From positions 1 through 64,000 of the forward strand of contig SLKI01000008.1 of NCBI GenBank assembly GCA_007134695.1: a stretch of 64,000 nt of DNA, read 5' to 3'. Position 1 is the first letter of the stretch. Each line of letters opens with the position of its first letter. Below the pieces are notes generated by a model. The model did no database searches. It was not told where the DNA came from and saw only the letters and a program-made list of their open reading frames with translations. This DNA comes from Balneolaceae bacterium. GTDB taxonomy: Bacteria; Bacteroidota; Rhodothermia; Balneolales; Balneolaceae. Shown here piece by piece: positions 6,475-49,151 of this stretch. Position numbers and translations under genes: made by a program.

Positions 6475-8079
6475 TCAGACAACCGGCCCTGCTTTGACGA
6501 GATTTTTACTCGCTTTTGCCTTGAACTTTTCAAAATTGTCACTGAACATCGTTGCCAGTTGACGAGCTTTTTCATCATAAGCAGCCGGGTCATCCCAGGT
6601 TGATCTCGGGTCGAGGATGTCGTCCGGTACTCCACTGATACGAACTGGATGTTCGAGGCCGAAAATCGGTTCTTTTCGATACTCAACGTGGTTCAGTTTC
6701 CCTCCGAGCGCTTCTGCCAACATCTTTCTCGTATATCGAAGAGCGATTCTGCTTCCGGTTCCATAAGGGCCGCCGGACCAGCCGGTATTTACAAGCCAAA
6801 CGTGTGCATTATGATCACGTATCTTGTCGGCCAGCATTTCGGCATAGACGGTCGGGTGAAGTGGCATGAACGGTGCTCCAAAGCAAGCGGAGAAGGTAGC
6901 TTGAGGCTCATCAATCCCGCGTTCAGTTCCCGCTACTTTTGCAGTATAACCGCTGATGAAGTGGTACATCGCCTGTTCCGGAGTAAGCTGTGAGATAGGA
7001 GGGAGTACACCAAAAGCGTCACACGTCAGAAAAACGATATGCTTGGGATGGGGGGCTACTCCGGTTTCACTGGCATTGGGAATATAATCAATCGGGTAAG
7101 AGCAGCGTGTGTTTTGAGTCATCGAGTCATCGTCAAAATCAGGGGCTCTCTGCTCATCCAGCACCACATTTTCGAGAATCGTGCCAGGCATTTTTGTTGT
7201 TCTGTAGATGAGTGGCTCCTTTTCTTCGGACAGGTGGATGGTTTTAGCATAACAGCCGCCTTCGAAGTTGAAAATTCCATTCTCACTCCAGCCATGCTCA
7301 TCGTCCCCGATCAGAATTCGATCCGGATCAGAAGAAAGAGTTGTTTTTCCGGTTCCGGAGAGGCCAAAAAAGATCGCAGTATTGTTATTGTGGTCCATGT
7401 TAGCCGAACAGTGCATCGGCATGACATTTTGATTGGGCAGCAGATAATTGAGAACAGAAAAGATCCCTTTCTTCACTTCTCCGGAGTAGAGAGTACCACC
7501 TATCAATATCATCTTTTTTTCAAAACTGCAAAGAATGAAGGTGCTTGTCCGGGTTCCATCTTTTTCCGGGTCCGCCTTGAAATGGGGAGCGGCCATAACG
7601 GTAAACTCCGGTTCGTGCTGTTCGAGCTCCTCCCGGTCCGGCCGGACAAACATGTTGTGAGCAAAAAGTGCATGATAGGCCGCTTCACTTACAATCCGCA
7701 CATTCAGGCGGTAATCGGGATCCGCGCCTGCAAAAAGATCCTTGACATAAACTTTTCGTTCATTGAGATAACGGCTGACTTTATCGAACATCCGGTCGAA
7801 AACATCACGGGAAATGCTTTGATTGAACTTTCCCCAGTCGATATCATCAGAGTGGGGTGGTTCATCGACGATAAACTTGTCTTTGGGAGACCGTCCTGTG
7901 TACTGGCCTGTGATTACACGAATGGCAAAGTCATTTGTAAGGGTCGCCTCACCGTTGGAGATCGCTTCTTCATACAGTTCTGGAGGGGTCAGGTTCCACA
8001 AGACCTGGTCATGGTCTTTCAGCCCCAGGTAATCGAGTCCGATCTGGCTTTTCGGGTGCTGTTTTCTATCTGCAGGCAT
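6475..8079 (-). CDS. pckA: Phosphoenolpyruvate carboxykinase (ATP)
   Basis: The 534-residue protein has the ATP-type PEPCK signatures: MHCSANM, the P-loop GLSGTGKTTLSSDP, the metal/nucleotide-binding IGDDEHGW, and FEGGCYAKTI. It converts oxaloacetate plus ATP to PEP and CO2, the entry step of gluconeogenesis. It is the first gene of the minus-strand run that continues with deoC. The ATG start at 8079 gives the normal N-terminus. A long open frame on the opposite strand is an antisense shadow. Confidence 0.97.
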   Translation of the reverse strand: MPADRKQHPKSQIGLDYLGLKDHDQVLWNLTPPELYEEAISNGEATLTNDFAIRVITGQYTGRSPKDKFIVDEPPHSDDIDWGKFNQSISRDVFDRMFDKVSRYLNERKVYVKDLFAGADPDYRLNVRIVSEAAYHALFAHNMFVRPDREELEQHEPEFTVMAAPHFKADPEKDGTRTSTFILCSFEKKMILIGGTLYSGEVKKGIFSVLNYLLPNQNVMPMHCSANMDHNNNTAIFFGLSGTGKTTLSSDPDRILIGDDEHGWSENGIFNFEGGCYAKTIHLSEEKEPLIYRTTKMPGTILENVVLDEQRAPDFDDDSMTQNTRCSYPIDYIPNASETGVAPHPKHIVFLTCDAFGVLPPISQLTPEQAMYHFISGYTAKVAGTERGIDEPQATFSACFGAPFMPLHPTVYAEMLADKIRDHNAHVWLVNTGWSGGPYGTGSRIALRYTRKMLAEALGGKLNHVEYRKEPIFGLEHPVRISGVPDDILDPRSTWDDPAAYDEKARQLATMFSDNFEKFKAKASKNLVKAGPVV

Positions 8080-8204
8080 GAATACGTTCTATTATTTTCG
8101 GCGTTAGTTTATTACAAAATTCTCTCTTCAGGGGCTTATCCGGCCCTGAACAGTTCAGTAAATGAAGACTCTCATGATACGGACTTTACGTCAAAAAAGC
8201 CGAA

Positions 8205-8999
8205 TCACTCAACGTATTCGAGGAGTTTCCATATATCGCTTTGAACCCGGTCTCGCATAGCGTAAATCGTTTCGAAAAATTCCATCACATTTACATCCGG
8301 ATGGTTGGCCCGAATCAATTCGTCGGTGAATCCAAATTCAACGTGCTCCAGCTTATTAAAGAAATTACCTGTAGCATAGTTGTAACCATAGTTCAGCCCT
8401 CCGGGAGTAATAAGTTGATACACCTCCCAGGCATTCATTCGATCTTGTTCCATGCGATCCTCGTGCAAGGGCCTGGCGATCTCATCTTCAAACATCACAT
8501 ATTGATATCCACTTCCAGGCGACACGTTCATAAAGTCCATCATCAGAAAGCGACTTTGCGGACCCTCCCGATCCCGCAGGACACTACGCCTAACTCGCCA
8601 GATTTCCGACTGAACAAAAGGCTGCTCAGAGAGTAAATCTGCAACCGGCGTCCCGGATGAGCGCCCTGACGCATCTCCAATCTGCCGGAAATCATCTATC
8701 TCAAACACTTCCATAGATTTGGTGCTGGTCACACTGACATAATTGTAATTGTCGGATTTGTTTCCGGAAAATCTCACTCTGTAGAGTTGCCAGCCGGAAA
8801 TTTTACCTTCATCGATTCGTTCCTGCTGAAAGGATTTCCAGGTTGTGGTAGCAAAACCGAGAAACTGCTCCTGTTCTGCAGGGTCCACGAAGAGATAATC
8901 GACCTTCATATATTCTCCCGCGGGAGTCTGGCTTGATGCAGGAAAAGATTGAAGTGCTAAAAGTATAGGTAGAAACAGAATGGAGAAGTAGAACTTCAT
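8205..8999 (-). CDS. Secreted protein of unknown function
   Basis: The 264-residue protein starts with a clear signal peptide (MKFYFSILFLPILLALQSF, cleavage probably after ASSQ). A good Shine-Dalgarno (GGAGG, 7 nt upstream of the ATG) supports the start. The body is rich in aromatic residues, with two related halves each containing a W-x-x-Y motif (GWQLYRVRF and AWEVYQLITPGG). This hints at a duplicated ferredoxin-like (dimeric alpha-beta barrel) fold, which is only a guess. It probably works in the periplasm or outside the cell. Confidence 0.65.
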   Translation of the reverse strand: MKFYFSILFLPILLALQSFPASSQTPAGEYMKVDYLFVDPAEQEQFLGFATTTWKSFQQERIDEGKISGWQLYRVRFSGNKSDNYNYVSVTSTKSMEVFEIDDFRQIGDASGRSSGTPVADLLSEQPFVQSEIWRVRRSVLRDREGPQSRFLMMDFMNVSPGSGYQYVMFEDEIARPLHEDRMEQDRMNAWEVYQLITPGGLNYGYNYATGNFFNKLEHVEFGFTDELIRANHPDVNVMEFFETIYAMRDRVQSDIWKLLEYVE

Positions 9000-9234
9000 A
9001 GTGGTCCTCCCTGAAATCGAAGTGCCGGGTTTTCATATCTGTCACTGCGACACGGACAGTTAATTTCAATTAACAAATTTTAATGAGAATTGGAAAGTTT
9101 TTGCTTTCTAAATCCAATTCCGTTTGCCGCCGATCTTGATTATCTTTCAGCAGCTGACAAATACACATTTTCAACACAGATGCTTGAAATAAAGTTTTGC
9201 CAAATCTAATAGGCAAACCGGATTTGTTTATAAT

Positions 9235-10695
9235 ATGTCCACTATTCAACACGATAAATTTGAAGCAGTCATCGGACTCGAGGTTCATGCTCAGCTGCTT
9301 ACCCAAAGCAAAGCGTTCGCACCGGTTTCGACCGAGTTTGGCGGAGCCCCCAATACCCAGGTCACACCCCTCTGTCTCGGCCATCCAGGCACACTGCCGG
9401 TTCTGAACGAGAATCTGGTTCGGTATACTGTACGTATGGGGCTGGCGACCGGCTGCAAGATCGCTGAAAAATCCATTTTTGCTCGCAAAAACTATTTCTA
9501 TCCCGATCTGCCCAAAGGATACCAGATCTCCCAGTATGAGACACCGATCTGCTATGACGGGGAGATCGAGATCGAACTGGATAATGGCCGAAAACGTATC
9601 GGAATTACACGGATTCATATGGAAGAGGATGCCGGCAAATCGATTCACGACCGGGACCCTGTTAACACACTTGTCGATTTAAACAGAGCGGGTGTACCTC
9701 TTATCGAAATTGTTTCCGAGCCCGATCTGAGAACACCTGGTGAAGCCTACGCCTACCTGAAAAAAATCCGTCAGATTGTTCAGTACCTGGAGATCTGTGA
9801 TGGAAATATGGAAGAGGGCAGTCTTCGCTGTGATGCCAATGTTTCAGTTCGGCCGAGAGGAGAGAGTGCGTTTGGGACTCGGACGGAATTGAAAAATATG
9901 AACTCTTTTCGCAATGTTGAACGTGCCATACAGTTCGAAATCGACCGGCAGATTGAACTGATCGAATCGGGCGGTGAGGTGGTACAGGAAACATTGTTGT
10001 GGGACCCGGATAAACTGCAAACACGTCAGATGCGCAGCAAGGAGGAGGCTCACGACTACCGTTATTTTCCAGAACCAGATATTCCGCCGGTTGTACTCGA
10101 AGAGGATTTTGTCGATGAAGTTCGACAAAATCTCCCCGAGATGCCGGAGTCAAGGCGAGAACGATTTGAAAAGCAGTTGGGCTTGAATTCGGATGACGCC
10201 CGAACGCTGACCGAAAATCGCTATCTTGCGGACTACTATGAAGAGATACTCGAATATTTGGACAACCCGAAAGCCGCTGCAAATCTGGTCATGACCGAAG
10301 TGCTGCGTGTACTCAACGAACAGAGCATCGACATCCAGGATTTTCCTGTGCGGCCCAAACCATTGGCTGACTTGATCCGGCTTAAACAGGATGAGAAAAT
10401 CAACTCTTCGGCTATGCAGAAAATCTTTAATCGCATGCTGGAGCAAGAGGAGGAGCCGGAAAAACTGGCCGGGGAGATGAATCTTTTGCAGATTTCTGAA
10501 GAAGGATTTGTCGAACCGATCATCCGTGAAGTACTCGATGCCCACCCGGACGAAGTGATGCGTTACCGGGAGGGGAAAAAACAGCTGATCGGGTTTTTTA
10601 TCGGCCAGGTTATGCAGAAGTCGAAGGGACAGGCAAATCCGAAACAGGTACGGGAACTGCTGACAAAAAAACTTGATCAAATTGAGAAATCATAA
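9235..10695 (+). CDS. gatB: Aspartyl/glutamyl-tRNA(Asn/Gln) amidotransferase subunit B
   Basis: The 486-residue protein has the GatB signatures GLEVHAQLLTQSKAF, YQISQYETPIC, RIHMEEDAGKS and DLNRAGVPLIEIVSEPD. It ends with the helical YqeY-like tail used for tRNA binding. In the GatCAB complex it transfers ammonia to mischarged Glu-tRNA(Gln)/Asp-tRNA(Asn). gatA is 14 kb downstream in this window; gatC was not seen. It is first in a plus-strand run (gatB, TlpA-like, tpiA, purD, luxE-like) with overlaps or very short gaps. Confidence 0.96.
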   Translation: MSTIQHDKFEAVIGLEVHAQLLTQSKAFAPVSTEFGGAPNTQVTPLCLGHPGTLPVLNENLVRYTVRMGLATGCKIAEKSIFARKNYFYPDLPKGYQISQYETPICYDGEIEIELDNGRKRIGITRIHMEEDAGKSIHDRDPVNTLVDLNRAGVPLIEIVSEPDLRTPGEAYAYLKKIRQIVQYLEICDGNMEEGSLRCDANVSVRPRGESAFGTRTELKNMNSFRNVERAIQFEIDRQIELIESGGEVVQETLLWDPDKLQTRQMRSKEEAHDYRYFPEPDIPPVVLEEDFVDEVRQNLPEMPESRRERFEKQLGLNSDDARTLTENRYLADYYEEILEYLDNPKAAANLVMTEVLRVLNEQSIDIQDFPVRPKPLADLIRLKQDEKINSSAMQKIFNRMLEQEEEPEKLAGEMNLLQISEEGFVEPIIREVLDAHPDEVMRYREGKKQLIGFFIGQVMQKSKGQANPKQVRELLTKKLDQIEKS

Positions 10696-10696
10696 A

Positions 10697-12103
10697 GTGA
10701 ACAATAATCGACTTTCGAATGACGATCGGATTCAGCGGTACTGGCTGATCTTATGCAGTCTGCTGCTGGTTTTTACCTCCTGCGGTACTACTGAGGAGGA
10801 CCCCTATATCGGCAATATTATCAAGGGACAAGTCACAGTCGACGAAAATATCGATCAGACGGGCGATTATTCAGGAATAGAATTGAAAATATTGAACCAT
10901 GCCGGAGATCCTGCATTACCGGACACAATCTTTTATACTACTACCGATTCAGCCGGTCATTTTCAATCCAGATCCCGGTTCCTCAACCCGGCAATCTACA
11001 CTCTGGAGATCGGCCGCAGAGGCCAGACCCTGGAGTCGGTTAACCTCGTTCTTGCACCGGAGGACACCGTTCGGCTCGAAGCGGAGCTGCCGAACGTAGT
11101 GGAAACTTTGCAGGTGTATTCGAGAGAAAATGAGTTGTTTGAAACCTATGAAAGGCTTGAGAGAGGGTTGGAACGTGTTCTGCAGTTTGCCCGGGCTGGC
11201 CACCTGACGGGAGACTCACTGGAAGCGGAGCTCCGGAAATGGAGTGACCTTTACTGGGATTTCTATCAGGATCATCCGAAAAGCTTTGCCGGAGAGCAGT
11301 CGGCCGTCAATGCGCTCTATCTGCTGGAGGGCTGGGATGACGAAATGATGATTGAGCGCCTTGAAATCTTGCAACAGGAATCCCCATCACTACTGCCTTT
11401 TTCATCTCGGCTGGCCGTTTTCTACTATGCTCATGAACATGGCCTGAATCGAGCACTGGACTATCTGGAGTCGCTAAGGGAGATGGAACTGGAGCAGCAG
11501 GCCAGGATGGAGATAGAACAGACCTTGATCCATCTTTTACACGACAGCCTGATGCTGGAACGGGCGGGAGAAGAATTGGCCCGCTTCAAAGAGGAATTTT
11601 CTGACCTGGAGAGAGCTGTAGAATGGGCTGAGGGACTGGAAGCGGATCTGACTCGACTGGCACCCGGGATGCCGGCACCTCACCTTGAAATCACCACTCT
11701 GGGTGGAGAGCAGCTTCATACAGGTTCAATCGGGGAGAAAGTACTGATTATTGAATTTACCCGAATCGAAAATTTTCTCTATCAGCATCAATATGAGGAG
11801 TTGATAAATCTTTACAGGGAGTATGGCAACGAAGACGTGGAAATTATTACGGTACCTTTTGGTGCAAATCCGCTGCTGATGGCCGCATTTTTTGAAGAGA
11901 GAGAACAGCTCTGGAGATTTGCCGAATCCGGCTCTGTAGATGAAGAACAGCTCCGTGCCGACTTTAATATACAGGTAATTCCAACCCGATTTCTGATAGA
12001 CACTAACGGTAATATCGTCGGAAAATATGAAGGATTGGAACTGGAAGAGATGTTTTCGGATTTTGAAACCCTCATTAACACTAACCTGGAAGAGGTCCTA
12101 TGA
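10697..12103 (+). CDS. Lipoprotein with TlpA/thioredoxin-like domain lacking CXXC
   Basis: The protein has ~468 residues, with a lipobox (LVFTSC) after a hydrophobic segment. An N-terminal beta-rich part looks like a carboxypeptidase-regulatory/DUF4369-type domain and is followed by a helical middle. The last ~140 residues look like a TlpA thioredoxin fold: GMPAPHLEITTLGGEQL, a beta strand VLIIEFTRI, and the cis-Pro loop VIPTRFLIDTNGNIVGKYEG. Where redox enzymes carry WCxxC this protein has FTRIENFLYQ, so it cannot do disulphide chemistry. The GTG at 10697 follows the gatB stop; a TTG at 10673 is an alternative start. It overlaps tpiA by 4 bp. Confidence 0.75.
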   Translation: MNNNRLSNDDRIQRYWLILCSLLLVFTSCGTTEEDPYIGNIIKGQVTVDENIDQTGDYSGIELKILNHAGDPALPDTIFYTTTDSAGHFQSRSRFLNPAIYTLEIGRRGQTLESVNLVLAPEDTVRLEAELPNVVETLQVYSRENELFETYERLERGLERVLQFARAGHLTGDSLEAELRKWSDLYWDFYQDHPKSFAGEQSAVNALYLLEGWDDEMMIERLEILQQESPSLLPFSSRLAVFYYAHEHGLNRALDYLESLREMELEQQARMEIEQTLIHLLHDSLMLERAGEELARFKEEFSDLERAVEWAEGLEADLTRLAPGMPAPHLEITTLGGEQLHTGSIGEKVLIIEFTRIENFLYQHQYEELINLYREYGNEDVEIITVPFGANPLLMAAFFEEREQLWRFAESGSVDEEQLRADFNIQVIPTRFLIDTNGNIVGKYEGLELEEMFSDFETLINTNLEEVL

Positions 12104-36649: not shown

Positions 36650-37144
36650 ATGCAAGATAACGAATATCTGGACCCGAAAGGCGATGTCAAACTGACAGAT
36701 AAACAATTAATGGAATCTCCCGAGGTAGCGGAAGTGGCCCGCCAGGTGATTGAGGAGTTCGACCTGGATTTTGGCCCGGCGGAGGTCGGTTACTTTCTCG
36801 TCTATCCGAACATCTCTAAGCAGCGAGCGGCCAAGTGCATCAAGGCGTCCAGAGAGGTCAAATACTACTCCGGCAACGATTATCTGATCGAGATTTCCGG
36901 TGAGCTATGGGATATGCTCGATCACGATACACGGAAAATGCTGGTTTATCACGAACTGCTTCATATCGATCCGGTCTTCAAGGCGAAAAACCAGGAGTGG
37001 AAGATGCGGATCAAAAAACCGGACTTCCAGGATTACTACCAGATCAACGACAAATTTGGCAATGAGTGGTACAAAACGATTCAGGCAACTGTCTCGTCAC
37101 TCTACGATCTGGATCCCAAGCAGGAGAGCAAGGTATCGACTTGA
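36650..37144 (+). CDS. Putative HExxH metallopeptidase, phage-type
   Basis: The 164-residue protein has a zincin motif HELLH at residues 101-105 (VYHELLHIDP). This follows a segment (FGPAEVGYFLVYPNISKQRA then AAKCIKASREVKYYSG) that fits the putative phage metallopeptidase family (PF18894-like, recalled from pattern, not searched). There is no signal peptide, so it should be cytoplasmic. It stands alone on the plus strand, next to the diverged AAA-like gene. The substrate is unknown. Confidence 0.65.
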   Translation: MQDNEYLDPKGDVKLTDKQLMESPEVAEVARQVIEEFDLDFGPAEVGYFLVYPNISKQRAAKCIKASREVKYYSGNDYLIEISGELWDMLDHDTRKMLVYHELLHIDPVFKAKNQEWKMRIKKPDFQDYYQINDKFGNEWYKTIQATVSSLYDLDPKQESKVST

Positions 37145-38097: not shown

Positions 38098-38181
38098 GCC
38101 CGGGTGGCGGAATTGGTAGACGCGTCGGATTCAAAATCCGATGGTGGCAACATCGTGCGGGTTCGAGTCCCGCCCCGGGTA
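38098..38181 (+). tRNA. tRNA-Leu (anticodon CAA)
   Basis: The 84-nt cloverleaf with a long variable arm is typical of tRNA-Leu. It has the acceptor stem GCCCGGG/CCCGGGT (G1:U72), the anticodon stem TCGGA/TCCGA with loop TTCAAAA (anticodon CAA), and the T arm GCGGG/CCCGC with TTCGAGT. CCA is not encoded. Confidence 0.95.
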
Positions 38182-38667
38182 CTCCTTTTCACAGAGGGCC
38201 GATATATCGATTGACGGCCAATTTCCAAGAAGCCATCAGGATAATAAGAGCATATATAGTTTACAATAATTTACAAAGATTAGAAATTCTTAATAATAAT
38301 TTTGATTTTAGATTCCAATCACTTAAAATGGAAGTGAAATATGAACAAGTGAACCAATCGGGGTTACAAATAAAAGGATAGATAGAATAACCCTTCCTCA
38401 AAACCTGATATTTAATGAATGACAACAGATCTCAGCTACATTGAGAGTGAACAATTTCAGGTTGAACCATTTTTAACTTTGAGTTTTCAATCGATTCTCA
38501 CATTTTGTCGGTTATAAATAGACAATGGAAGGCTTTTAAAGGGAAAAAATTGTTATCGGGTACCAGCTAATTAAAATTTTTTTGTAACAAATGGCTTTCT
38601 CATGTCTCTTGTACACTACAACACGTTAGGAACTTCTAACTATCAACAAACCAACACGGAGTAAACA
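38182..38667. other. Long A+T-rich intergenic region before the pilin gene
   Basis: This 486-bp region has no convincing gene and is clearly more A+T-rich than its surroundings. It contains a 6-bp inverted repeat TCACTT/AAGTGA (38319-38324 with 38332-38337) and a 5-bp one GTTAG/CTAAC just before the pilin gene. It probably carries the promoter and 5' UTR of the pilin gene; no standard promoter boxes could be fixed. Confidence 0.5.
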
Positions 38668-39153
38668 ATGGGTCAACAACAATTATTACTCGTTATACTT
38701 GTAACGATCATCGTGGGTATCGCGACGGTCGTGGCTATCAACACATTCGGCGCAGCTGCCGACGACGCAAACGTACAGGCATCCATTCAGGATTCTGCTC
38801 AGATCGGTGCAACTGCACAAAGTTTCTATATGAGGCCTGAAATGCTTGGTGGAGGTGGCAGAGATTTCTCTGATATCACATGGGATGATATACCTATGGG
38901 TTTCGATGATGATTGCGCTCATATTGAGGGTAATCCCGAAAGATGTAATGAGAATGCAGGTTTTACGACAATTACGAGCCCTGGATCAAATGATTTCACT
39001 TTCACAACGATTCCAGCTCAAGCAGGTGGAGTAATAGCTGTCCGTGTCTGTGCCGATGACGTGCAGATGTCAAGCTGGGACGCAGATGGCACCCTTGGTC
39101 CTAGTGATGCACCAGACTGTGACAATGGTGATGAAGGTGGTGAAGGTGGTTAA
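38668..39153 (+). CDS. Pilin-like filament subunit with minimal leader
   Basis: The 161-residue protein starts MGQQQLLLVILVTIIVGIAT, a single long hydrophobic helix as in type IV pilins, with Gly at position 2 as possible prepilin peptidase site. The leader would be only two residues, and the mature position-5 residue is Leu, not Glu. The globular part is acidic and contains four cysteines (83, 93, 128, 151) that could form two disulphides; it ends in GDEGGEGG. It is followed by its own strong terminator and then by PilC/PilB genes, which supports a pilin role. The short leader has not been shown to be cut. Confidence 0.7.
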   Translation: MGQQQLLLVILVTIIVGIATVVAINTFGAAADDANVQASIQDSAQIGATAQSFYMRPEMLGGGGRDFSDITWDDIPMGFDDDCAHIEGNPERCNENAGFTTITSPGSNDFTFTTIPAQAGGVIAVRVCADDVQMSSWDADGTLGPSDAPDCDNGDEGGEGG

Positions 39154-39182
39154 ACCTATAATTAACATAAGCTGATTTTTAC

Positions 39183-39212
39183 AAAAGGGCTCCTTCGGGA
39201 GCCTTTTTTTTT
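39183..39212 (+). terminator. Rho-independent terminator after the pilin gene
   Basis: The stem GGCTCC/GGAGCC (39188-39193, 39198-39203) is closed by a TTCG tetraloop, extended by A-T pairs and followed by a T-run. It lies 30 bp past the stop, so the pilin transcript mostly ends here. The downstream machinery genes must use readthrough or their own promoter. Confidence 0.93.
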
Positions 39213-39380
39213 CGAACATTATAATGCCTGTGACTCTGGTAAACCAGTTAACCTGCAAGCATCTAAAGCATTAGAGAATTTTAAGATTAACCTTTCAGAA
39301 TTACTGTCAGTTTACTATTCTGTAGAAAATATGTGCAATATGGCTCAGATGGGTAATATCGCCGAACACGTTATCGACTT

Positions 39381-40706
39381 ATGCCTCAATTCAGATTACA
39401 AGCGGTTTCATCGGCCGGCAAACAGGTAAAAACCGAGTTCGAGGCTCCTAGCAAGAAGGAGGCGAAGAAAAAGGTGGATCGCCTTGCCCAGAAGCAGGGC
39501 TTCAGCGTCAGAGCACTCGATCAGAAGCAAACCTACCTGTACAAGGCCCGCCGGAACGGCAAAACAATCAAAGGTGAACAGGAAGCCTACAACAAGCAGG
39601 AGCTGGAACGGGCACTGGTCAAGCTGGGCTACAAGGTCGAAAAGATCAACAAGAAGCTTTTCGACTTCAAGGGTGGAGTACCCAGAAATGATGTAGTCAC
39701 CTTCATCAGTCTGTCGGCCGATCTTCTGCGCCAGCAGCTGACGTTCGATGAAATTTTGACACTTCTTCACGAAGATACCACCAATCAGCGGATGAAGGAG
39801 GTGATCAAGGAGATTCAAAAGGATCTCAAGGAGGGTAAAGATGGCAAGGAAGTTTACGGCAAACATGAAGATGTCTTCGGAAAATTTGCCGCTTACATGC
39901 TCAGTGTTGCCTCTACGTCAGGTAATATGGCCCTGGTTTTCGACAGTACAGCCAAGTTTCTGGAACGGGATGCCGAGTTCAAGAAAAATCTCCGCCGTTC
40001 TCTGATGATGCCCACAGTCACGGTCATCGCCGTTATTGCAACCTTGCTTTTCTATGTGGGATATATCTTTCCTGCCCAGGCTGAAATGCTTCTCGAATTC
40101 GATATGCAGATCCCTCCGATGACGATGGCAACCCTCGACATGAGCTACTGGCTGCAGGATCACTGGATTCTGATCACACTGGCTCATGTTCTGCCGTTTG
40201 TAGTTTTATTTGCGATGTGGAAACATCCGAAAGGGCGTCTGATTCTTGACAAATACCTGATCAAGCTCCCGATCATGGGTGACCTGATGCACAAGACCAG
40301 TATTGAGATCTTCTCCAGGGTATTTTATACACTTTACAGCGGATCCGGTGAAAATATCGAGGTGATCCGGGTTGCGTCAGAAGCCTGCCGCAACACCTAC
40401 ATGGAAAAACAGATTAAAGAACAGGCGATTAAAAGTATGCTTAAAGAGGGGACCGGTCTGGTGGAGGGCCTTGAGTCGACCGGTGTTTTCACCCGGACGG
40501 CGATCAGCCGCTTCAGGTTGGGTGCGGAATCGGGAGCTCTTCGCGACAACGCCAAACAGCTGGCCGATTACTATGAAGTCCAGACCGGCTACAAGATGGA
40601 ATCGATTATCGATCAGATTAACCTCTTTGTCAACCTCTTTATCATGGTTGCATTGATCGCCATTACGGTGGTCTCTTCCGAGGCGGCGCTCGTAAGTCCG
40701 GCTTGA
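39381..40706 (+). CDS. pilC: Type IV pilus / type II secretion inner membrane platform protein PilC/GspF
   Basis: The 441-residue protein has a basic N-terminal part (~1-100) and two T2SSF domains: VTFISLSADLLRQQLTFDEI with membrane helices MPTVTVIAVIATLLFYVGYI, and a second copy with IEIFSRVFYTLYSGSGENIE and a C-terminal helix LFVNLFIMVALIAITVVSSE. PilC anchors the assembly ATPase under the inner membrane and moves subunits into the filament. pilB follows after 117 bp. Confidence 0.9.
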   Translation: MPQFRLQAVSSAGKQVKTEFEAPSKKEAKKKVDRLAQKQGFSVRALDQKQTYLYKARRNGKTIKGEQEAYNKQELERALVKLGYKVEKINKKLFDFKGGVPRNDVVTFISLSADLLRQQLTFDEILTLLHEDTTNQRMKEVIKEIQKDLKEGKDGKEVYGKHEDVFGKFAAYMLSVASTSGNMALVFDSTAKFLERDAEFKKNLRRSLMMPTVTVIAVIATLLFYVGYIFPAQAEMLLEFDMQIPPMTMATLDMSYWLQDHWILITLAHVLPFVVLFAMWKHPKGRLILDKYLIKLPIMGDLMHKTSIEIFSRVFYTLYSGSGENIEVIRVASEACRNTYMEKQIKEQAIKSMLKEGTGLVEGLESTGVFTRTAISRFRLGAESGALRDNAKQLADYYEVQTGYKMESIIDQINLFVNLFIMVALIAITVVSSEAALVSPA

Positions 40707-40823
40707 TACACCGAGGAATTATTTTAAATGATTGGGAATCCTGCTTTGAATCAACCATTTTTAGATCGTAAACCAGGGTAAACCGTAGAGAATCCAACCA
40801 AAGCAAATTTGTTGTCCATTTAG

Positions 40824-42599
40824 ATGGGAAAGGTCAATACAAGACAACATATCGGAAAACTGCTGGTAAACCGCGGGGTTATCACCGAGGAACAGCTTTC
40901 CAAAGCGCTTATGATTCTGGATGAGGAGCCGGAAACCTCAAACCGGCGTCTCGGGCAAATTCTCTATCAGGATCTCAAACTCGACCGGCATACGGTGATG
41001 AAAGAAATTGCCGGCATCTATGCCTTTGATGAGGTGTTTACCGGCAAAGAGGAGCTTCCGGCAGAGGAGATCTCGAAGATAAAATCGAATGTCGACGAAC
41101 TTCCCGAAGAGGTGGTCGAAGACCTGGTCTACCTTAAAGCGGTGCCGATCGAAAAAAGCAATTCGACGCTGACCATTGCGGCTGCCGACCCATCTGAACC
41201 GAATTTGAATTCAGTCATCTCCAGACTCAACTTCAAGCAGTTCGAGATCAAGTATTGCCGGTATGACCTGATTGAAAGTATCCTGGCCGATGTGTATGAG
41301 CAGAAGAACGAATTTCTCGACCTGCTTGAAGATATCGAGTATGAGGAAGCTGAAATTCCCGGGGATGAGGAGGAGGTCGATGAAGAGGAGATCGACGCCG
41401 AGATTAATCAGAGCATGCTCAACTCTCTTGTGGAGGGGATGCTCGTGGAAGCCGTACGTCAGGGAGTCAGTGACCTCCATATCATCCCGAGCGGTCCTGC
41501 AACAACCGACATCCGGTTTCGGACCGACGGGAAACTGCAGCTCTGGCATCAGCAAAAAGGAGTCAAGCCCGAAGCGATTTCGGCTGTTATCAAAGATAAA
41601 ACCAGAAATGTAGATCGTTTTGAGAGAGACAGTTCCCAGGACGGTTTCATTCAGCGTACAGTCGACAATTACAACATTCGATACCGGGTTTCCATCATGC
41701 CGATGGTCGGCGCACAATTTGAGCGTAAGTTCGAATCGGTTGTGATCCGGGTTCTCGACGATAGAAAAGTGATCACCGACCTGGAAGTTCTCGGACTTCA
41801 GGAGCAGGCCAAGGCGGATTTTGTCAAAGCGATCGAGAAACCTTCAGGTATCGTCATTATCACCGGGCCGACCGGAAGCGGTAAGTCGACCACACTGGTT
41901 GCGGCTCTCTACTATGTACTTGACCCGACCAAAAACGTTTTGACAGTTGAAGAACCGGTCGAATACCTGATTAAGGGAGCCCGGCAGTTAAAAATCAGCC
42001 ATCACATGACATTCGATCAGGCGATACGCGGAATCCTTCGTCACGACCCGGATATTGTACTGGTAGGAGAGATCAGGGATCTTAAAACGGCTGAAATCTC
42101 CATCAAGCTGGCGAATACCGGCCACCTGACTTTTTCCACACTTCACACGAATGATGCTCCAAGCGCTATATCAAGGCTTTACAAAATGGGGGTCGAACCG
42201 TTTCTGATCGCCAATGCCGTCAACCTGGTGATGGCTCAGCGTCTGGTACGAAGATTATGTAAGGAGTGCAAGCAGCCCTATGAGCCGCACGAAGAGACAC
42301 TTCGGGGCCTGGGGTTTACTGATGAGGAGATCAACTCGACGACATTCTACAAACCGGTAGGGTGCAAAGCCTGCAACCAGATAGGATATAAAGGGCGAAT
42401 GGGTATCCATGAGGCGCTTTTTTTCAGCAAAGAGATCAAGCGCCTTATTCTGGAAGCCGGTCAGGAGATCGACGAGGAGAAGATCAAAGAAACTGCGATC
42501 CGGCAAGGTATGAAAACATTACGGGCGTCCGGACGCGAACGGATCAAGCAAGGAACCACCTCTATTGAGGAAGTTCTTGCCATAACGATCGAAGACTAA
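40824..42599 (+). CDS. pilB: Type IV pilus extension ATPase PilB/GspE
   Basis: The 591-residue protein has an N-terminal MshEN/T2SSE_N domain (~1-160), a known c-di-GMP-binding type in some relatives, followed by an acidic linker (EIPGDEEEVDEEEIDAEI). The ATPase core has Walker A GPTGSGKSTTL, the Asp box VEEPVEYLIKGARQ, Walker B DPDIVLVGEIRD and the His box TFSTLHTNDAPSA. A tetracysteine zinc knuckle is present (CKECKQPYE and CKACNQIGYKGR). It powers filament assembly. Confidence 0.95.
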   Translation: MGKVNTRQHIGKLLVNRGVITEEQLSKALMILDEEPETSNRRLGQILYQDLKLDRHTVMKEIAGIYAFDEVFTGKEELPAEEISKIKSNVDELPEEVVEDLVYLKAVPIEKSNSTLTIAAADPSEPNLNSVISRLNFKQFEIKYCRYDLIESILADVYEQKNEFLDLLEDIEYEEAEIPGDEEEVDEEEIDAEINQSMLNSLVEGMLVEAVRQGVSDLHIIPSGPATTDIRFRTDGKLQLWHQQKGVKPEAISAVIKDKTRNVDRFERDSSQDGFIQRTVDNYNIRYRVSIMPMVGAQFERKFESVVIRVLDDRKVITDLEVLGLQEQAKADFVKAIEKPSGIVIITGPTGSGKSTTLVAALYYVLDPTKNVLTVEEPVEYLIKGARQLKISHHMTFDQAIRGILRHDPDIVLVGEIRDLKTAEISIKLANTGHLTFSTLHTNDAPSAISRLYKMGVEPFLIANAVNLVMAQRLVRRLCKECKQPYEPHEETLRGLGFTDEEINSTTFYKPVGCKACNQIGYKGRMGIHEALFFSKEIKRLILEAGQEIDEEKIKETAIRQGMKTLRASGRERIKQGTTSIEEVLAITIED

Positions 42600-42618
42600 T
42601 GGAACAGGAGCCACCATC

Positions 42619-43122
42619 ATGCTGAATGAGGGGAATCAATCAACCAATCTGCTGCCGGAATACAACAGAAAACTTCTGAAGGATCCACCGATGATTCTGA
42701 AGAATTTTCACTATGAGGATGTACTGTCTTTTCTAAATATGGGGGTAGAAGAGCGATATGTGGACGGTGATGAACTGATCGCCGACGATGAACCGGTAAG
42801 CAAAGCATATCTGATTGCAGAAGGTCAGGTTTCAATATGGAAAGAGAATATCCAGCTGGCAGAGTTGACGATCGGAGATTTTATTGGCGAATCGTTTCTC
42901 TTCAGCAAAGCCCGAACCATTGCCAAGGTTCAGGCGGATCGGGACACCGTTGTCCTGAAGTATGAGCGATATGAGGTGTTGAACTTTTTTCGCAAACGCC
43001 CGGGGAAACTTTTTAACATCTTTACAAAGAATATTATTGAAATTCAGCAGAAGAAAATTGCAAATATGAATATGCAACTTCTTCAGTTGAAAAAACGACT
43101 TTTACAGCAGGATCAATGGTGA
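42619..43122 (+). CDS. Cyclic-nucleotide-binding domain protein in the pilus locus
   Basis: The 167-residue protein has one cNMP-binding beta-roll (~25-125: VDGDELIADDEPVSKAYLIA, EGQVSIWKENIQLAELTIGD, FIGESFLFSKARTIAKVQAD). A helix/coiled coil follows (NIIEIQQKKIANMNMQLLQL) instead of a DNA-binding domain. It lies 19 bp after pilB and before pilT, so it may tie pilus motor activity to a nucleotide signal. Ligand binding is unproven. Confidence 0.78.
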   Translation: MLNEGNQSTNLLPEYNRKLLKDPPMILKNFHYEDVLSFLNMGVEERYVDGDELIADDEPVSKAYLIAEGQVSIWKENIQLAELTIGDFIGESFLFSKARTIAKVQADRDTVVLKYERYEVLNFFRKRPGKLFNIFTKNIIEIQQKKIANMNMQLLQLKKRLLQQDQW

Positions 43123-43401
43123 AATAATGGTTGTTTTTGCTCTAATAGCGTATAATAATGGCTTAAAGTTGCCAAAATCGGGGATTTGGACTAAATATTA
43201 GAAATTAAGGGTAATACTTGTTTTGCTACAATGGAATGTTTTTATTATGCATGACAGACGGCTTTAGATAAAAACATAAAGGATTAACAAGATCAAACCG
43301 AACAAATAGTGCCGGTTAGGGTTTTTTGTGGATGATATTAAACCGGTATTAATAATTCGAAGGCTTCACCAAACACGGGATATAAAGACCAACAGCTCCC
43401 C

Positions 43402-44649
43402 ATGCAGTTCTTCAGTGAAAATTTACCACGATTAACGGAACTATCACGCAGTGTACACGAACAGATTCCTGCGACGGTGCGAGGACTGGATTATCATGAA
43501 AGACTGGGAGAAGAGATCGAAAAACTGGACCAGGATTCCAGGATTGACCTTGAAAAGATGGTAGAGGACCTGCTTCTCTATATGTATAAGAACGAAGCAT
43601 CCGACATTGATCTGGGAGGGCCCGGCTGCTTTGGAAAGATCTGGTATCGGGTTCACGGTAAAAAGTCACCGATTAAATTGAATAAGGAACTGGAACTGGA
43701 GGAAACAAACCTGCTTCTCCACAACATTATTACACCTGGGCAGCGAAAAAGGTTTATAAGGGATAATAGTCTCGACTTTTCTCATTCCATTGAACAGGAG
43801 GGGAAAAAAGAGAATTTGCGGTATCGGGCCAGCATGTACCTCGATCTGGAGCAGGTTGCACTCAATATGCGAAAGATCGACGCAGAAATCCGGCCGTTCA
43901 AAGGATTGAATCTGCACCCGGAGATCGCCAAGGCGTTAAGCCTCAAATACTACAAATACGGCTTGACACTTGTGACCGGTATCACCGGGTCAGGTAAATC
44001 TTCGACACTCGATACCATCATTGATGCCAATAATCGAACCGTCGATGCTCATATTGTAATCGTCGCCTCACCTGTTGAATTGATACACAAACCGATTAGA
44101 TCGGTGGTTCGCCACCGTGAGGTGGGACGCGACGTACCAAGCTTTAAAGATGGAGCGGTTCAATCTCTGCGTCAGGACCCCGATATCATCGTGGTCGGTG
44201 AGCTTCGGGATCCGGAAACGATCATGACTACGCTGGAAATTACCGATTCCGGGCACAAGACATTCGGTACCCTTCATACCTCTTCGGCTATGGAGAGTAT
44301 TGAACGAATCGTCGGTGAGGTACCATCAGAAGAACAAAATAGGGTTAAAACCCGCCTGGCCGATGTGTTAACCTGTGTGATGAGCCAGAAACTGGTACCG
44401 AGCCTGGACGGAAAGAGGGTGCTGGCCAAGGAGGTGCTGTTGGTTACAGGCCCGGTCCGGGCGGCCATACGAAATGACAATGTGAATGAGATCTACCAGA
44501 TGATGGCCGAAGGAAGCGATTACGGTATGATCACGATGGAACAGGATCTGAAGCGACTCTACCAAAGCGGGACCATATCCCGTGAGGAGGCGTTGAACAA
44601 TGCCAACAACAAAAAACGGTTCCTGCAACTCATTGACGAGGCAGACTAA
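43402..44649 (+). CDS. pilT: Type IV pilus retraction ATPase PilT-like
   Basis: The 415-residue secretion-superfamily ATPase lacks the long MshEN region and zinc knuckle of PilB. Motifs are Walker A GITGSGKSSTL, Walker B DPDIIVVGELRDPETI, the His box KTFGTLHTSSAMESI, and the PilT-like AIRNDNVNEIYQMMAEGSDYG. Family knowledge says it retracts pili. It starts with ATG at 43402, after a 279-bp A+T-rich gap that may hold a separate promoter. Confidence 0.85.
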   Translation: MQFFSENLPRLTELSRSVHEQIPATVRGLDYHERLGEEIEKLDQDSRIDLEKMVEDLLLYMYKNEASDIDLGGPGCFGKIWYRVHGKKSPIKLNKELELEETNLLLHNIITPGQRKRFIRDNSLDFSHSIEQEGKKENLRYRASMYLDLEQVALNMRKIDAEIRPFKGLNLHPEIAKALSLKYYKYGLTLVTGITGSGKSSTLDTIIDANNRTVDAHIVIVASPVELIHKPIRSVVRHREVGRDVPSFKDGAVQSLRQDPDIIVVGELRDPETIMTTLEITDSGHKTFGTLHTSSAMESIERIVGEVPSEEQNRVKTRLADVLTCVMSQKLVPSLDGKRVLAKEVLLVTGPVRAAIRNDNVNEIYQMMAEGSDYGMITMEQDLKRLYQSGTISREEALNNANNKKRFLQLIDEAD

Positions 44650-44661
44650 AGAAGGACAAAT

Positions 44662-46416
44662 ATGTTTGGCAAGAAGGATTACATAGGAATTGCACTGGAT
44701 AACAAAACGATGGATTCGGTGCGCATCCAGCTTGACGGAAAAAAGGTGCAGCTGCTGGATATGACTCGCCATGAGCTGGTGACGCCGCTGGATGAAGGGT
44801 ATGACTCATCGACGCAGGAGGGCCGGCATCAGGCCGATGAAGGGCAGGATGTCGATGATATTTTCGGTTTTGATAACTCCGGAGGGCAGGCCGCAGCTGA
44901 AGAATCATCCGGTGAAGAGATAGAAGGCCTGGAAGAATTAGAGGAGTTTGATGAGTTCGAGGATTTCGATGAGCTGGACGATCTTGATGAGCCTGCCGGT
45001 GAGTCGATGGACCTGGATATTACCGACGAAGCGGATGCCCCGGAAAACAACGTCATGCTACTTTATAACTATCTGCTGGCTTCGGACGGCAGGAAGAAAC
45101 ATCTCGGCCTGAATATCCGCTCAGGCAATACCGTCTTCCTGTTTGAGCGTGAACGGAATTTCAAGGAAGTTAAACAGAAGGAGCTTCAGGAAGTGGTCAG
45201 CTCCCGCCTGGAATCGGTATATGGATTTCAGCCCACCACAGACCGCTATAGCTATTTTGTACGTCCGGATGGATCACTCTCCATTGCATCTGTAGACAAA
45301 GAGCCAGCCTCTTTGGAACTGGTGAACCAGATCGATGAAAATTTTTCAGGCCTCAACCTGTATATCGAAAATATTCTGCCTGATGAGGTCGCTCTTACCG
45401 GGCTGTACCGTTATAACTATCCGGATGCGGATGGAACGGAGATTACCGGGCTGATTCAGTTCGGAGCGAGCCGATGCCGTATCATCTTCATGAGGGGGAA
45501 AGAAGTGCTTCAGGTATCGCCGGTTATAAATGAAGGAACGTTGAATAAAAACTTCCTTAATACTCTTTTCAGCAAGCTGCTATTTCAGCTCGATACGGGT
45601 GAAGTTCCAGCCCTGAACCGAATAGTTTTATGTGATAACACTCTCGGCAGTAAAGCGCTGGAGTTTTTCCAGAACAATTTCCCGGATGTTGAAGTCAGTG
45701 AGTTCACGCTCAACCCCAACCTGTTTGAAATCTCTGATGATCAGCTTCCAAAAGTAAGAGAGTATACAACGGCGATCGCTATCGCTGTCGGTGCCAGCGG
45801 TGCGGCAGGCCAGCTCTATCCCGACCTCTCCATCATCCCGGACTATGTACATGATCGCCAAAAAATATTCAAACTCGAGTGGCATGGTGTTATTTTGTTG
45901 ATTGCCATTGGGTTAAGTCCAATACTTGTCAATCATTATTACCAGGAAAATCAGGAGCGGATTAACCAGTTGGAGTCAGAAAACCAGCGAGTTGAAACCA
46001 TGATTTCCGACCTGGAAGAGACGGTTATTCAAACCGAACTTCTGCAGGAGATGCTCGTTTCGTATCAGGATCAACTGGTAATGCTGCAAGAGCTGAGTGA
46101 AGGCAATATTCGCTGGACGGCATCCTTCGACCGGTTTAATGATGCTGTGGCTGATGTGGGCGGTATCTGGATCACATCGTTCAGGGAGACGGCCGACGGA
46201 CTGCAGATCGAAGGCAACTCTCTGTTTGAAGACAGAATTCCTCAGCTTGCGCGCCAGTTCAGCAACGTAACCCTGCTCAATGTGAGAAACAGACAGGTTC
46301 AGGAGCAAAGTGTCTTCTCATTTACCATGCGTATCAGCCGCATCTATCCGGACGATTCTTTCTACACTCCGGAAGAGACCCGGGAGCTGCAACAATTTTT
46401 GGAAACGATGAATTGA
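44662..46416 (+). CDS. PilM-PilN fusion / GspL-like protein with acidic insert
   Basis: The 584-residue protein begins with an actin-like (PilM) fold (YIGIALDNKTMDSVRIQL). Early in that domain (~residues 45-120) sits a strongly acidic, repetitive segment (EELEEFDEFEDFDELDDLDE). The fold resumes (GLIQFGASRCRIIF, AIAIAVGASGAAGQLYPDLS), followed by one membrane helix (~409-429, WHGVILLIAIGLSPILV), a coiled coil and a PilN-like periplasmic domain (~500-580). This joins the usually separate PilM and PilN, as in GspL. It links the ATPase level to the periplasmic alignment complex. Confidence 0.78.
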   Translation: MFGKKDYIGIALDNKTMDSVRIQLDGKKVQLLDMTRHELVTPLDEGYDSSTQEGRHQADEGQDVDDIFGFDNSGGQAAAEESSGEEIEGLEELEEFDEFEDFDELDDLDEPAGESMDLDITDEADAPENNVMLLYNYLLASDGRKKHLGLNIRSGNTVFLFERERNFKEVKQKELQEVVSSRLESVYGFQPTTDRYSYFVRPDGSLSIASVDKEPASLELVNQIDENFSGLNLYIENILPDEVALTGLYRYNYPDADGTEITGLIQFGASRCRIIFMRGKEVLQVSPVINEGTLNKNFLNTLFSKLLFQLDTGEVPALNRIVLCDNTLGSKALEFFQNNFPDVEVSEFTLNPNLFEISDDQLPKVREYTTAIAIAVGASGAAGQLYPDLSIIPDYVHDRQKIFKLEWHGVILLIAIGLSPILVNHYYQENQERINQLESENQRVETMISDLEETVIQTELLQEMLVSYQDQLVMLQELSEGNIRWTASFDRFNDAVADVGGIWITSFRETADGLQIEGNSLFEDRIPQLARQFSNVTLLNVRNRQVQEQSVFSFTMRISRIYPDDSFYTPEETRELQQFLETMN

Positions 46417-46422
46417 TCGGAT

Positions 46423-47280
46423 ATGTCATACGGAATTCGTAATACATTAATTCTTGCATTTGTACTGCTCCTTTTTTTAGGAAGCGGATTCGGCTATATC
46501 CATTTCTACCAGAAGAGTATGATAGAGGAGCTGGAGCTCTCACTGGAAGAGAAAGAAGTGGAGTACGCAGAAATGAGTGAAATTGCAGAAACCTTTCCAT
46601 TTTACAGCCAGGCTGTGGAAGAGGCACAGAACTTTATTGAAACATTCGATAAAACTCTTTTCCCGATCAATGACACCGACCGCATTTTTAAATTCCTTTC
46701 GGAAATCAACCTGGAAGCACCGAGAGTTGAATTTGAGTACCTCTACTCCGATTCGACCGCAGAGGAGGAGTATGGCATTATCACATCGACCATCACCGGT
46801 TACGGCCCCTACCAGAGTATCTATACGTTTATAAATCGAATCGAAAACAGCCGCCCGGTCCAGAAAATTGAAAACCTGCAGGTATCACCGGTTAACCGGC
46901 CGGATGAATATGGACATGCAAATTTCAACTTTACCCTCAACAGCTACTACAATCGAACGGAGCATTTTGATACGACAGAAGAGGATTTAACGGTTGCTGG
47001 CCGGTATCCGGATCGATTCCACAATCCGTTTTACCCCCTTATTCGCGAACCGGAGCCGAATGTAGACAACCTGGTCGAGGTCGACAACAGCCGGCTGATT
47101 GGTGTCAGTCAGTCTCGCATCTTTTTACGTAATCAACATGGCGAATTGATCAACCTGTCGCTGAATGACCCTGTATATCTCGGCCAATTGACTGAAATCA
47201 ATTCCCAACAAGGCCGAGCGACATTTCGGCTTAACCGAGGAGGAATTATCGAAGAGGTAACCCTGGAGGTACAACGATGA
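46423..47280 (+). CDS. PilO-like pilus alignment protein
   Basis: The 285-residue protein has one N-terminal membrane helix (LILAFVLLLFLGSGFGYIHF), a coiled coil (EELELSLEEKEVEYAEMSEI) and a ferredoxin-like periplasmic domain (~85-180, GPYQSIYTFINRIENSRPVQ). This is the PilO plan. A C-terminal extension (~215-285: LVEVDNSRLIGVSQSRIFLR, LNDPVYLGQLTEI) looks like a PilP/GspC homology-region beta-domain, which may replace the missing PilP. It overlaps the secretin gene by 4 bp. Confidence 0.72.
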   Translation: MSYGIRNTLILAFVLLLFLGSGFGYIHFYQKSMIEELELSLEEKEVEYAEMSEIAETFPFYSQAVEEAQNFIETFDKTLFPINDTDRIFKFLSEINLEAPRVEFEYLYSDSTAEEEYGIITSTITGYGPYQSIYTFINRIENSRPVQKIENLQVSPVNRPDEYGHANFNFTLNSYYNRTEHFDTTEEDLTVAGRYPDRFHNPFYPLIREPEPNVDNLVEVDNSRLIGVSQSRIFLRNQHGELINLSLNDPVYLGQLTEINSQQGRATFRLNRGGIIEEVTLEVQR

Positions 47281-49151
47281 AAAGTAACAGAATGCCGACA
47301 CTCACAACGAGATTGACCATCTTGCCAACCCTCTGTTTGGCGATGCTGATAACCGCCGGTACCCTGTTTGCCCAGGATCGGCTTCCCAGAGATTTCACTC
47401 CTCCGGATCAGTCGATTGCATTCGACCGCTCGACCGATTTCCAGGAAGCGATCGATGTACTCAATGAATTTTCTCTGGAGTTTGAAGATATGCTGATCAT
47501 CGACCGTACGGGGCATACGGGCGAAATCGGCCGTTCACTTCCCAATATGCACTGGCAGGAGTCCCTTCAGATGCTGCTCAGAATTCATAATATGGTGCTG
47601 CACAGAGAGGAAGACTATTATGAAGTTCTGACTCGGGAGCAGGCTGAAGAGCGTGTACGGCCGGATCGAGTCGATCCGGATGCGCCGGACGAGCCTCGCC
47701 TGACTACAGCTACCCGTGAAGTACGTATCAACGCTACTTTTTTTGAAGGAAACCGGAGTGCGCTCAGAGAGGTCGGTGTCGACTGGTCGACCCTTACCAG
47801 CAATGTACCCCCCAATGCGATCAATTTTATCGGTGAGGATGCAACCGAATCGATTCCCGGATCTTTTGAAAACCGGTTTGTATCGGTCAATGCTGCGGGT
47901 GCCCGGAGTGTATCCCAAAATGTATTCAACTCGCTGGTAAACTTTGGCGATATCGGTGCAGGAATCGAGGTTCAGGCACTTTTCAGTGCCTTTGAGGCGG
48001 ATAATCTGGGAGAAGTTCTCGCAACACCGTCTGTCAAGGTGATGGATGGCGAAGAGGGCCGGATACAGGTAGGAGAGGACTTTTCGATCAAGCAGCGCGA
48101 CATTGCCGGCAACGTTATCGATGAATTTTTCAGTACAGGTACAATTTTGACCGCCACCCCACAGGTAGTCGATTATCAGGACACCACATTTATCTATCTG
48201 CAGCTCGAAGTAGAGCGTTCCTCCGCTCAGCCGGATCCGGTCAGCACGGTTATCAGCAAGGAAGATGCAAGCACGCACACACTGCTCCTGAACGGTGAAA
48301 GTACGGTGATAGCCGGTCTTTACCGTACTGAAAGAAGTGAAGTCCGAAGGGGCATTCCCATATTGAAGGATCTGCCAGGGTGGTTTTTCGGCCTGAAGTA
48401 CCTTTTTGGGTACAACAGAACTGAGGTCTCCCAGTCCGAACTCATCGTGCTTGTTCAGGCAGAGCTTGAGGATCCGCTGCCGGTCAGGCTGGCACGTCAA
48501 TTGCAATCCAAACGTGAATTGCTGGAAATGCAGCAGCTGCGTCACAGGGATGAGCTCGACTATATTACAGGTGATGCTTTTGACTCGGACTTTTTTGATG
48601 AACCCGAACAGGAGCCGAACGACGATCCGCCGCCGGCTGAGGAGCTGATCGAAGAGGAGCGTGAAGAGAGACCGCTTACTGAGGAACCGGAAGATCCGGT
48701 TATTGAGAAACCTGAAGAAAAGAAGGCTGAAAAGCCGGAGATAAAGGATCCAGAAGAGCCTGAAAAGGTCGAAGAGGTGAAAGAAAAGGAACCGGAAAAG
48801 GAGATCGAAGAGGTCGAACCTGAGGAGGTTCCCGAAGAGGAGGAAGTTGTAGAAGAGATCGAGGAAGAGATCGAAGAAACTGTAGAGCCGATTGCTCTGC
48901 GATATTTCACGATTGCCGAGACGCTGACTTCACGCTCGGCGGCTGAAAGAGTTTATAGGGAACTGCAAGATGAGAATTACCGTCCCTATCTTCTCTACAG
49001 TCCGAGAACATCCTATTACTTTGTCGCTTACGCCGGGTTTGAAGATTTAGAAGAGGCACGCAGTTACACACGGCAGATACGCGAAGAGATTCAGCCGGAT
49101 GCCTGGATGTCTACCCTGACGGTGGAAGAGATTATCGAACCGCGAAACTGA
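47277..49151 (+). CDS. Secretin with acidic linker and C-terminal SPOR domain
   Basis: The 624-residue protein has a signal peptide (ending TLFAQ), an STN-like domain (~45-100) and the secretin core (~150-400: IGAGIEVQALFSAFEADNLG, EVLATPSVKVMDGEEGRIQV, AGLYRTERSEVRRGIPILKD). An ~115-residue Glu/Pro/Lys-rich linker (~430-545) precedes a SPOR-like module (~548-620; YFTIAETLTSRSAAERVY, YYFVAYAGFEDLEEA). Secretins form the outer-membrane pore of pili/T2SS. A SPOR end should bind peptidoglycan, where PilQ normally uses AMIN domains at its N-terminus. The ATGA overlap with the pilO-like gene shows coupling. Confidence 0.85.
   Translation: MKSNRMPTLTTRLTILPTLCLAMLITAGTLFAQDRLPRDFTPPDQSIAFDRSTDFQEAIDVLNEFSLEFEDMLIIDRTGHTGEIGRSLPNMHWQESLQMLLRIHNMVLHREEDYYEVLTREQAEERVRPDRVDPDAPDEPRLTTATREVRINATFFEGNRSALREVGVDWSTLTSNVPPNAINFIGEDATESIPGSFENRFVSVNAAGARSVSQNVFNSLVNFGDIGAGIEVQALFSAFEADNLGEVLATPSVKVMDGEEGRIQVGEDFSIKQRDIAGNVIDEFFSTGTILTATPQVVDYQDTTFIYLQLEVERSSAQPDPVSTVISKEDASTHTLLLNGESTVIAGLYRTERSEVRRGIPILKDLPGWFFGLKYLFGYNRTEVSQSELIVLVQAELEDPLPVRLARQLQSKRELLEMQQLRHRDELDYITGDAFDSDFFDEPEQEPNDDPPPAEELIEEEREERPLTEEPEDPVIEKPEEKKAEKPEIKDPEEPEKVEEVKEKEPEKEIEEVEPEEVPEEEEVVEEIEEEIEETVEPIALRYFTIAETLTSRSAAERVYRELQDENYRPYLLYSPRTSYYFVAYAGFEDLEEARSYTRQIREEIQPDAWMSTLTVEEIIEPRN

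Follow-up and report, generated by a model that had tools for sequence, protein, structure and literature searches.

A type IV filament locus of Balneolaceae with leaderless pilins, predicted to work without a prepilin peptidase

The pilin gene and its start

The window, by which we mean the whole 64,000-nt stretch of Balneolaceae DNA analysed here (host assembly of 2.71 Mb, 91% complete), contains at positions 38668–49151 of the + strand a type IV filament locus with a leaderless major pilin. All eight open reading frames named in a preliminary description of this DNA were found on the same strand and in the order given there: pilin-like subunit, PilC, PilB, cyclic-nucleotide-binding (cNMP) protein, PilT, PilM-PilN fusion, PilO-like protein and secretin. 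Pfam and NCBIfam models support most of the eight products, and the pilin obtained no match to any pilin family. An assembly ATPase, a polytopic platform protein and a pilin-fold subunit, by which the type IV filament superfamily is recognised, are encoded here together.

The first gene (38668–39153, + strand) encodes a protein of 161 amino acids, which begins with MGQQQLLLVILVTIIVGIATVVAIN (MGQQQLLLVIL...) and enters the membrane helix at once, without a leader and without Glu5. A GGAG Shine-Dalgarno-like sequence (38658–38661) is located 6 nt before the ATG codon, and an in-frame TAA stop (38662–38664) lies two codons 5' of it; any leader is therefore excluded in the pilin of the window. This property, which is the main feature of the locus, was overlooked in the preliminary description. 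The same arrangement was registered in relatives. Among 39 Balneolales pilins an in-frame stop was found within 17 upstream codons in 35 cases and within 4 codons in 31, and in a set of 144 pilins from several phyla, sampled by means of the MGQQQ motif, the stop was located no more than 10 codons upstream in 123 cases, with an alternative upstream start in only 7. A profile search that did not depend on the motif gave 159 distinct N-termini, all of which begin at an ATG, TTG or GTG start codon and have Gly or Ala as residue 2. Some Balneolaceae second pilins (L098, L102) start with MANKELLL, so that Glu, if the initiator Met is counted as 1, occupies position 5, where canonical mature pilins have it.

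An AlphaFold model of the major pilin, built on a 122-row alignment (predicted local distance difference test, pLDDT, of 88), consists of a helix at residues 2–55 and a four-stranded sheet, so that according to the model the product has a pilin-like fold. In the Protein Data Bank (PDB) the best matches of its profile are type IV pilins (PilE1 and geopilins, with PilA5 lower), all of them weak (E of 0.027–0.8), and hhalign comparison with canonical Balneolaceae pilins gave a probability of 74% (E = 3e-5). A match to MacB_PCD (0.00097, below the cut-off) was judged to be a helix artefact.

Search for a prepilin peptidase

The definition of type IV filaments includes both a leader and the peptidase (PMC4471445, PMC6668835). 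No prepilin peptidase (PF01478, family A24) was found near the locus or elsewhere in its own assembly, which confirms the absence from the neighbourhood stated in the preliminary description and extends it to a trait of the lineage rather than a gap in one locus. PF01478 was missing from 56 of 59 relatives and from 181 of the 196 class genomes; among the 134 genomes of the class with the leaderless pilin, 122 had no match. In other groups 37 of 50 genomes with this pilin were negative, among them the closed chromosomes CP053447, CP070637 and CP070707; six single-contig genomes were likewise negative. As a positive control, the same search scored in 12 of 14 reference genomes. When the threshold was relaxed to E ≤ 10 in ten genomes, nothing appeared above noise, and the only sub-threshold match of the window's own genome was judged to be noise as well. 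Two sub-threshold matches that were read, one near a YebC-like gene (G000) and the other a CPBP-like protein (G064), do not belong to A24.

Across the 196 class genomes, pilins with an N_methyl leader were detected in 14 of 15 PF01478-positive and in 7 of 181 PF01478-negative genomes (Fisher p = 1.9e-15), and the presence of the leaderless pilin was independent of PF01478 (p = 0.40); both p-values ignore phylogeny. N_methyl genes of one metagenome-assembled genome (MAG; G058, contig C255) are FimT/PilV-like and look like gammaproteobacterial contamination. Inspection of the loci in peptidase-positive Balneolaceae revealed a separate canonical locus, where PilD comes immediately after a prepilin with a leader (DGFSLTELLIVLAIIGIL), and the leaderless pilins of these genomes (L047, L050, L055) are still leaderless. 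Since classical leader pilins track PilD and leaderless ones do not, leader and PilD occur or are missing jointly, and the leaderless system is indifferent to both. Neither a class III leader peptide on the pilins of this system nor a dedicated prepilin peptidase in the genome was registered.

Other genes of the locus

Downstream of the pilin, the + strand encodes a PilC/GspF-like inner-membrane platform protein (39381–40706; PF00482, 1.4e-27) and a PilB-like extension ATPase (40824–42599; T2SSE/PilB, 4.8e-104) with an N-terminal MshEN-like region bearing a cyclic di-GMP motif. They are followed by a protein with a cyclic-nucleotide-binding domain (42619–43122; PF00027, 2e-10), the position of which between pilB and pilT is conserved, and by a PilT-like ATPase (43402–44649; TIGR01420, 2e-91), which also matches PilT structures in the PDB. 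The next gene (44662–46416) combines PilM and PilN in a GspL-like arrangement: the PilN half is supported by PF05137 (4.5e-06 at residues 501–558), the PilM half was assigned by position and a weak match to the Amuc_1101 family (7e-07), and of 59 genomes from its family and order, 42 contain relatives of this fusion.

The PilO-like protein (46423–47280) was recognised by profile comparisons and matches weakly (T2SSM_b, 0.09; PDB PilO 3jc8, E of 0.008 with the family profile). Its C-terminal part, approximately residues 190–285, was compared with a T2SSC/PilP-like set by hhalign (probability 58%, E = 1e-4), and both share the motif NPF...IF..DQ.G...GD.VYLG. The PilP-like end suspected earlier thus has moderate support. 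The last gene (47277–49151) encodes a PilQ-like secretin (PF00263, 5.8e-27) with an acidic linker; it scores alike for the PilQ and GspD models. Its C-terminal SPOR match is weak and sub-threshold (PF05036, 0.0028).

Comparison of synteny, proposed in the preliminary description, covered 40 related loci. None of them departs from the order pilC-pilB-cNMP-pilT-pilMN-pilO-pilQ, which excludes chance; all seven machinery genes are present in 28 of them. The pilin gene is situated directly upstream of pilC-pilB, and in related loci it often occurs as a tandem pair. One genome (G029) carries two leaderless-type loci, a compact one and another with minor pilins inside. Just upstream of the pilus locus there is a putative phage metallopeptidase gene (36650–37144; PF18894, 3e-24), separated from it by tRNA-Leu (38098–38182). 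A scan of viral_contigs with PilB gave no match.

Candidate minor pilins

Other families of the order have PilV/GspI-like, PilW/GspJ-like and PilX/GspK-like genes inserted between pilB and pilT, and all their products start at the helix. The eight-gene locus is not the whole system; in the window's genome a leaderless minor-pilin-like trio occupies a second locus, on contig C43 (6932–7426, 7495–8184 and 8229–9305), with stops 3–7 codons upstream. None of the three matches a Pfam family, and the names PilV/W/X were assigned by gene order, size and motif rather than by significant homology. Leaderless homologues are present across other groups of the Fibrobacteres-Chlorobi-Bacteroidetes (FCB) assemblage. 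An AlphaFold model of the PilW-like family (pLDDT 92) again combines a helix at residues 2–55 with a beta-sheet, and a type IV-like pilin is the second, weak match of its profile in the PDB (E = 0.069). For the leaderless PilX-like family, comparison with canonical PilX-like proteins is suggestive of homology (hhalign probability 31%, E = 5e-4).

DUF4402-like secreted proteins follow the trio (6932–10728 of the same contig, and four further loci), and in relatives it is also followed by a conserved secreted protein of about 275 amino acids and a SPOR-domain protein of about 1100. This neighbourhood might represent a chaperone-usher-like arrangement or an export set for tip adhesins.

Phylogeny of PilB and PilT

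Both ATPases score below the curated cut-offs, a first sign of their divergence: PilB obtained 455 bits with the pilB model and 414 bits with gspE, under the cut-off in each case, and PilT obtained 306.8 bits with TIGR01420 at a cut-off of 319.1, so that a PilT-family ATPase is present with a score just under the threshold. A tree was built from 86 PilB and PilT sequences. It joins the PilB proteins encoded at these loci in a single clade (SH-aLRT 98) and their PilT proteins in another (SH-aLRT 100, branch length 2.4). Both clades are placed outside the reference ATPases of type IVa pili (T4aP) and of the type II secretion system (T2SS), as well as outside the second Balneolaceae system. The tree was computed rapidly, its few references represent T4aP and T2SS (not Tad, type IVb, MSH or Com), and some of its branches are long; within this limited set the ATPases do not fall inside the T4aP clade. 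Separate ancestry of the motor, indicated by this tree, favours the distinct filament type that had been suggested. The idea of a machine mixing T2SS and T4P traits fares otherwise: since PilB and PilT each form one separate branch, the machine, to judge by its ATPases, did not arise as a hybrid.

PilT proteins of the clade share GITGSGKS, with Walker A and the Walker B glutamate kept. The Asp-box dyad of the window's PilT (44065–44070) is Ala222-Ser223 instead of Glu-Asp, and the pair is also lost in 30 related PilT (AS, SS, AA and similar; one retains Asp), as compared with ED in 11 of 11 reference PilT/PilU. This replacement may change the chemistry of the ATPase or retraction.

Proposed mechanism and alternative explanations

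Based on these data we hold with good confidence that the product of this locus is a type IV filament machine independent of prepilin peptidase. It is also probable, with somewhat less certainty, that in this FCB-group filament the whole pilin set is made in mature form, with no prepilin peptidase, no leader removal and no N-methylation by PilD, and with at most housekeeping removal of Met. Pilins would insert N-in via their first helix, and methionine aminopeptidase could efficiently remove the initiator Met of the major pilin, since it is always followed by Gly or Ala; the subunit would then be ready for assembly with no need of a dedicated protease. PilV/W/X-like minor pilins would prime the filament, and PilC with the PilB ATPase would supply it with subunits taken from the inner membrane. 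Between this motor and the PilQ secretin the link would be formed by PilM-PilN and PilO(-PilP); the filament would pass through the secretin, the C-terminus of which may bind peptidoglycan. PilT, devoid of the usual Asp-box acid pair, would retract or otherwise remodel the filament, which may respond to nucleotide second messengers through the cNMP-binding protein and the MshEN-like part of PilB.

The system is predicted to work like a type IV pilus, yet it lacks two defining features, the leader and the peptidase. With T4aP (PilA-PilB-PilC-PilT-PilMNOP-PilQ-PilD) it shares PilB, PilC, PilT, PilM/N/O and secretin homologues, a minor-pilin set and the pilin-like fold; it differs in that all pilins are leaderless, PilD is absent, PilM is fused to PilN and PilP apparently to PilO, the Asp box of PilT is altered, a cNMP protein is included in the operon and the ATPases form separate clades. 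The second Balneolaceae locus (L261, L262, L263) belongs to the same host family and also encodes PilM, PilO, a PilP-like protein, secretin, platform and ATPase, but its pilins have a classical leader (..DGFSLTELLIVLAIIGIL..), PilD is adjacent and the ATPase groups with reference PilB/GspE. Very large secreted proteins follow it in L262 and L263, and it is possibly a T2SS-like system with its substrates alongside. Likeness to the type IV pilus-like locus Amuc_1098-1102 of Akkermansia is at the domain level only, with weak matches of the PilM-PilN-like protein and the secretin to the Amuc_1101 and Amuc_1098 models.

Similarity to T2SS includes GspE, GspF and GspD homologues, the GspL-like fusion and GspI/J/K-like minor subunits, and one might assume that the machine is a secretion pseudopilus rather than a surface pilus, also given the similar PilQ and GspD scores of its secretin. 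We consider this unlikely. The clade possesses a PilT-like ATPase and lacks both the leader and GspO, and its PilB obtains a slightly higher score as PilB than as GspE and branches apart from the references of both kinds.

Another possibility is that Met-Gly serves as a minimal leader, and that an undescribed peptidase, having taken the place of PilD, cleaves it off before Gln3; the N-terminal Gln could then cyclise. The Gly2-Gln3 junction resembles the class III G|x site, Gly2 is almost invariant and mature archaeal pilins can start with Gln. On the other hand, minor pilins are often without Gly (MN, MS and MY starts) and therefore a common cleavage site is not conserved, the operon neighbourhood has no conserved extra enzyme, and an A24 homologue is lacking in most genomes, with nothing above noise in the ten genomes of the relaxed search. 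Such cleavage seems distinctly improbable.

That the leaderless gene encodes an unrelated small membrane protein beside the machine, with the true pilin elsewhere, would agree with the lack of a Pfam pilin match and of a significant Foldseek match, but is very hard to reconcile with the pilin layout of the model (one 54-residue helix and a four-stranded sheet), the best profile matches, the often tandem position just upstream of pilC-pilB and the N_methyl search, which found no leader-bearing pilins in the window's genome. That a prepilin peptidase exists but escaped the search, through gaps in the assemblies, through extreme divergence or because it is shared with a different system, is least credible of all, although the window's assembly and many others are incomplete. 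Against it stand the negative single-contig genomes and closed chromosomes, the positive control, the two matches read as not A24 and a pilin with no leader to cleave.

Several points weigh against independence from the peptidase and should be kept in mind. Many of the genomes are incomplete MAGs, and both the filament and its mature N-terminus are predictions from genes. The profiles match known pilins weakly (E of 0.027 for the major and 0.069 for the minor pilin, with the hhalign probability of 74%), and Foldseek comparison of the major and PilW-like models with the PDB gave no significant match. A peptidase of unknown family could, besides, cut after Gly2.

Occurrence and biological meaning

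The preliminary description spoke of a possible filament type in this lineage, but the system extends to several FCB phyla. When one genome for each species was scanned with a DNA pattern, more than 100 leaderless pilin genes were detected, and the lineages among the matches listed are Bacteroidota/Balneolota/Rhodothermota, Ignavibacteriota, Kryptonia, Calditrichota, KSB1, Marinimicrobia and Zixibacteria; as only these matches are considered and the pattern encodes MGQQQ, the scan shows breadth and not exclusivity. No account of such a system, or of type IV pilins made without a leader, was found in the open-licence PubMed Central literature. MSH loci without a peptidase have been described, but in genomes having one in another system (PMC6668835), and Caldithrix abyssi was reported to carry a type IV pili cluster (PMC5317091). 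The 2013 genome paper on Melioribacter roseus registered pilT, pilQ, pilB and pilC, without pilA or pilD, and considered the complete set probably absent (PMC3534657). An M. roseus MAG carries the leaderless pilin, and this is probably the pilA that was missed.

Type IV filaments are both defined and searched for by their leader and prepilin peptidase (PMC4471445). If the proposed reading is true, a multi-phylum clade without both shows that leader cleavage is not essential for assembly, a step regarded as universal having apparently been dispensed with across a group of phyla, and explains why annotators met pilB, pilC, pilT and pilQ but neither pilA nor pilD, as in M. roseus (PMC3534657). 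The major and minor pilins of the window's genome, which match no Pfam pilin family, would then be new pilin families missed by current models, and the roles of the leader, Glu5 and N-methylation would become directly testable.

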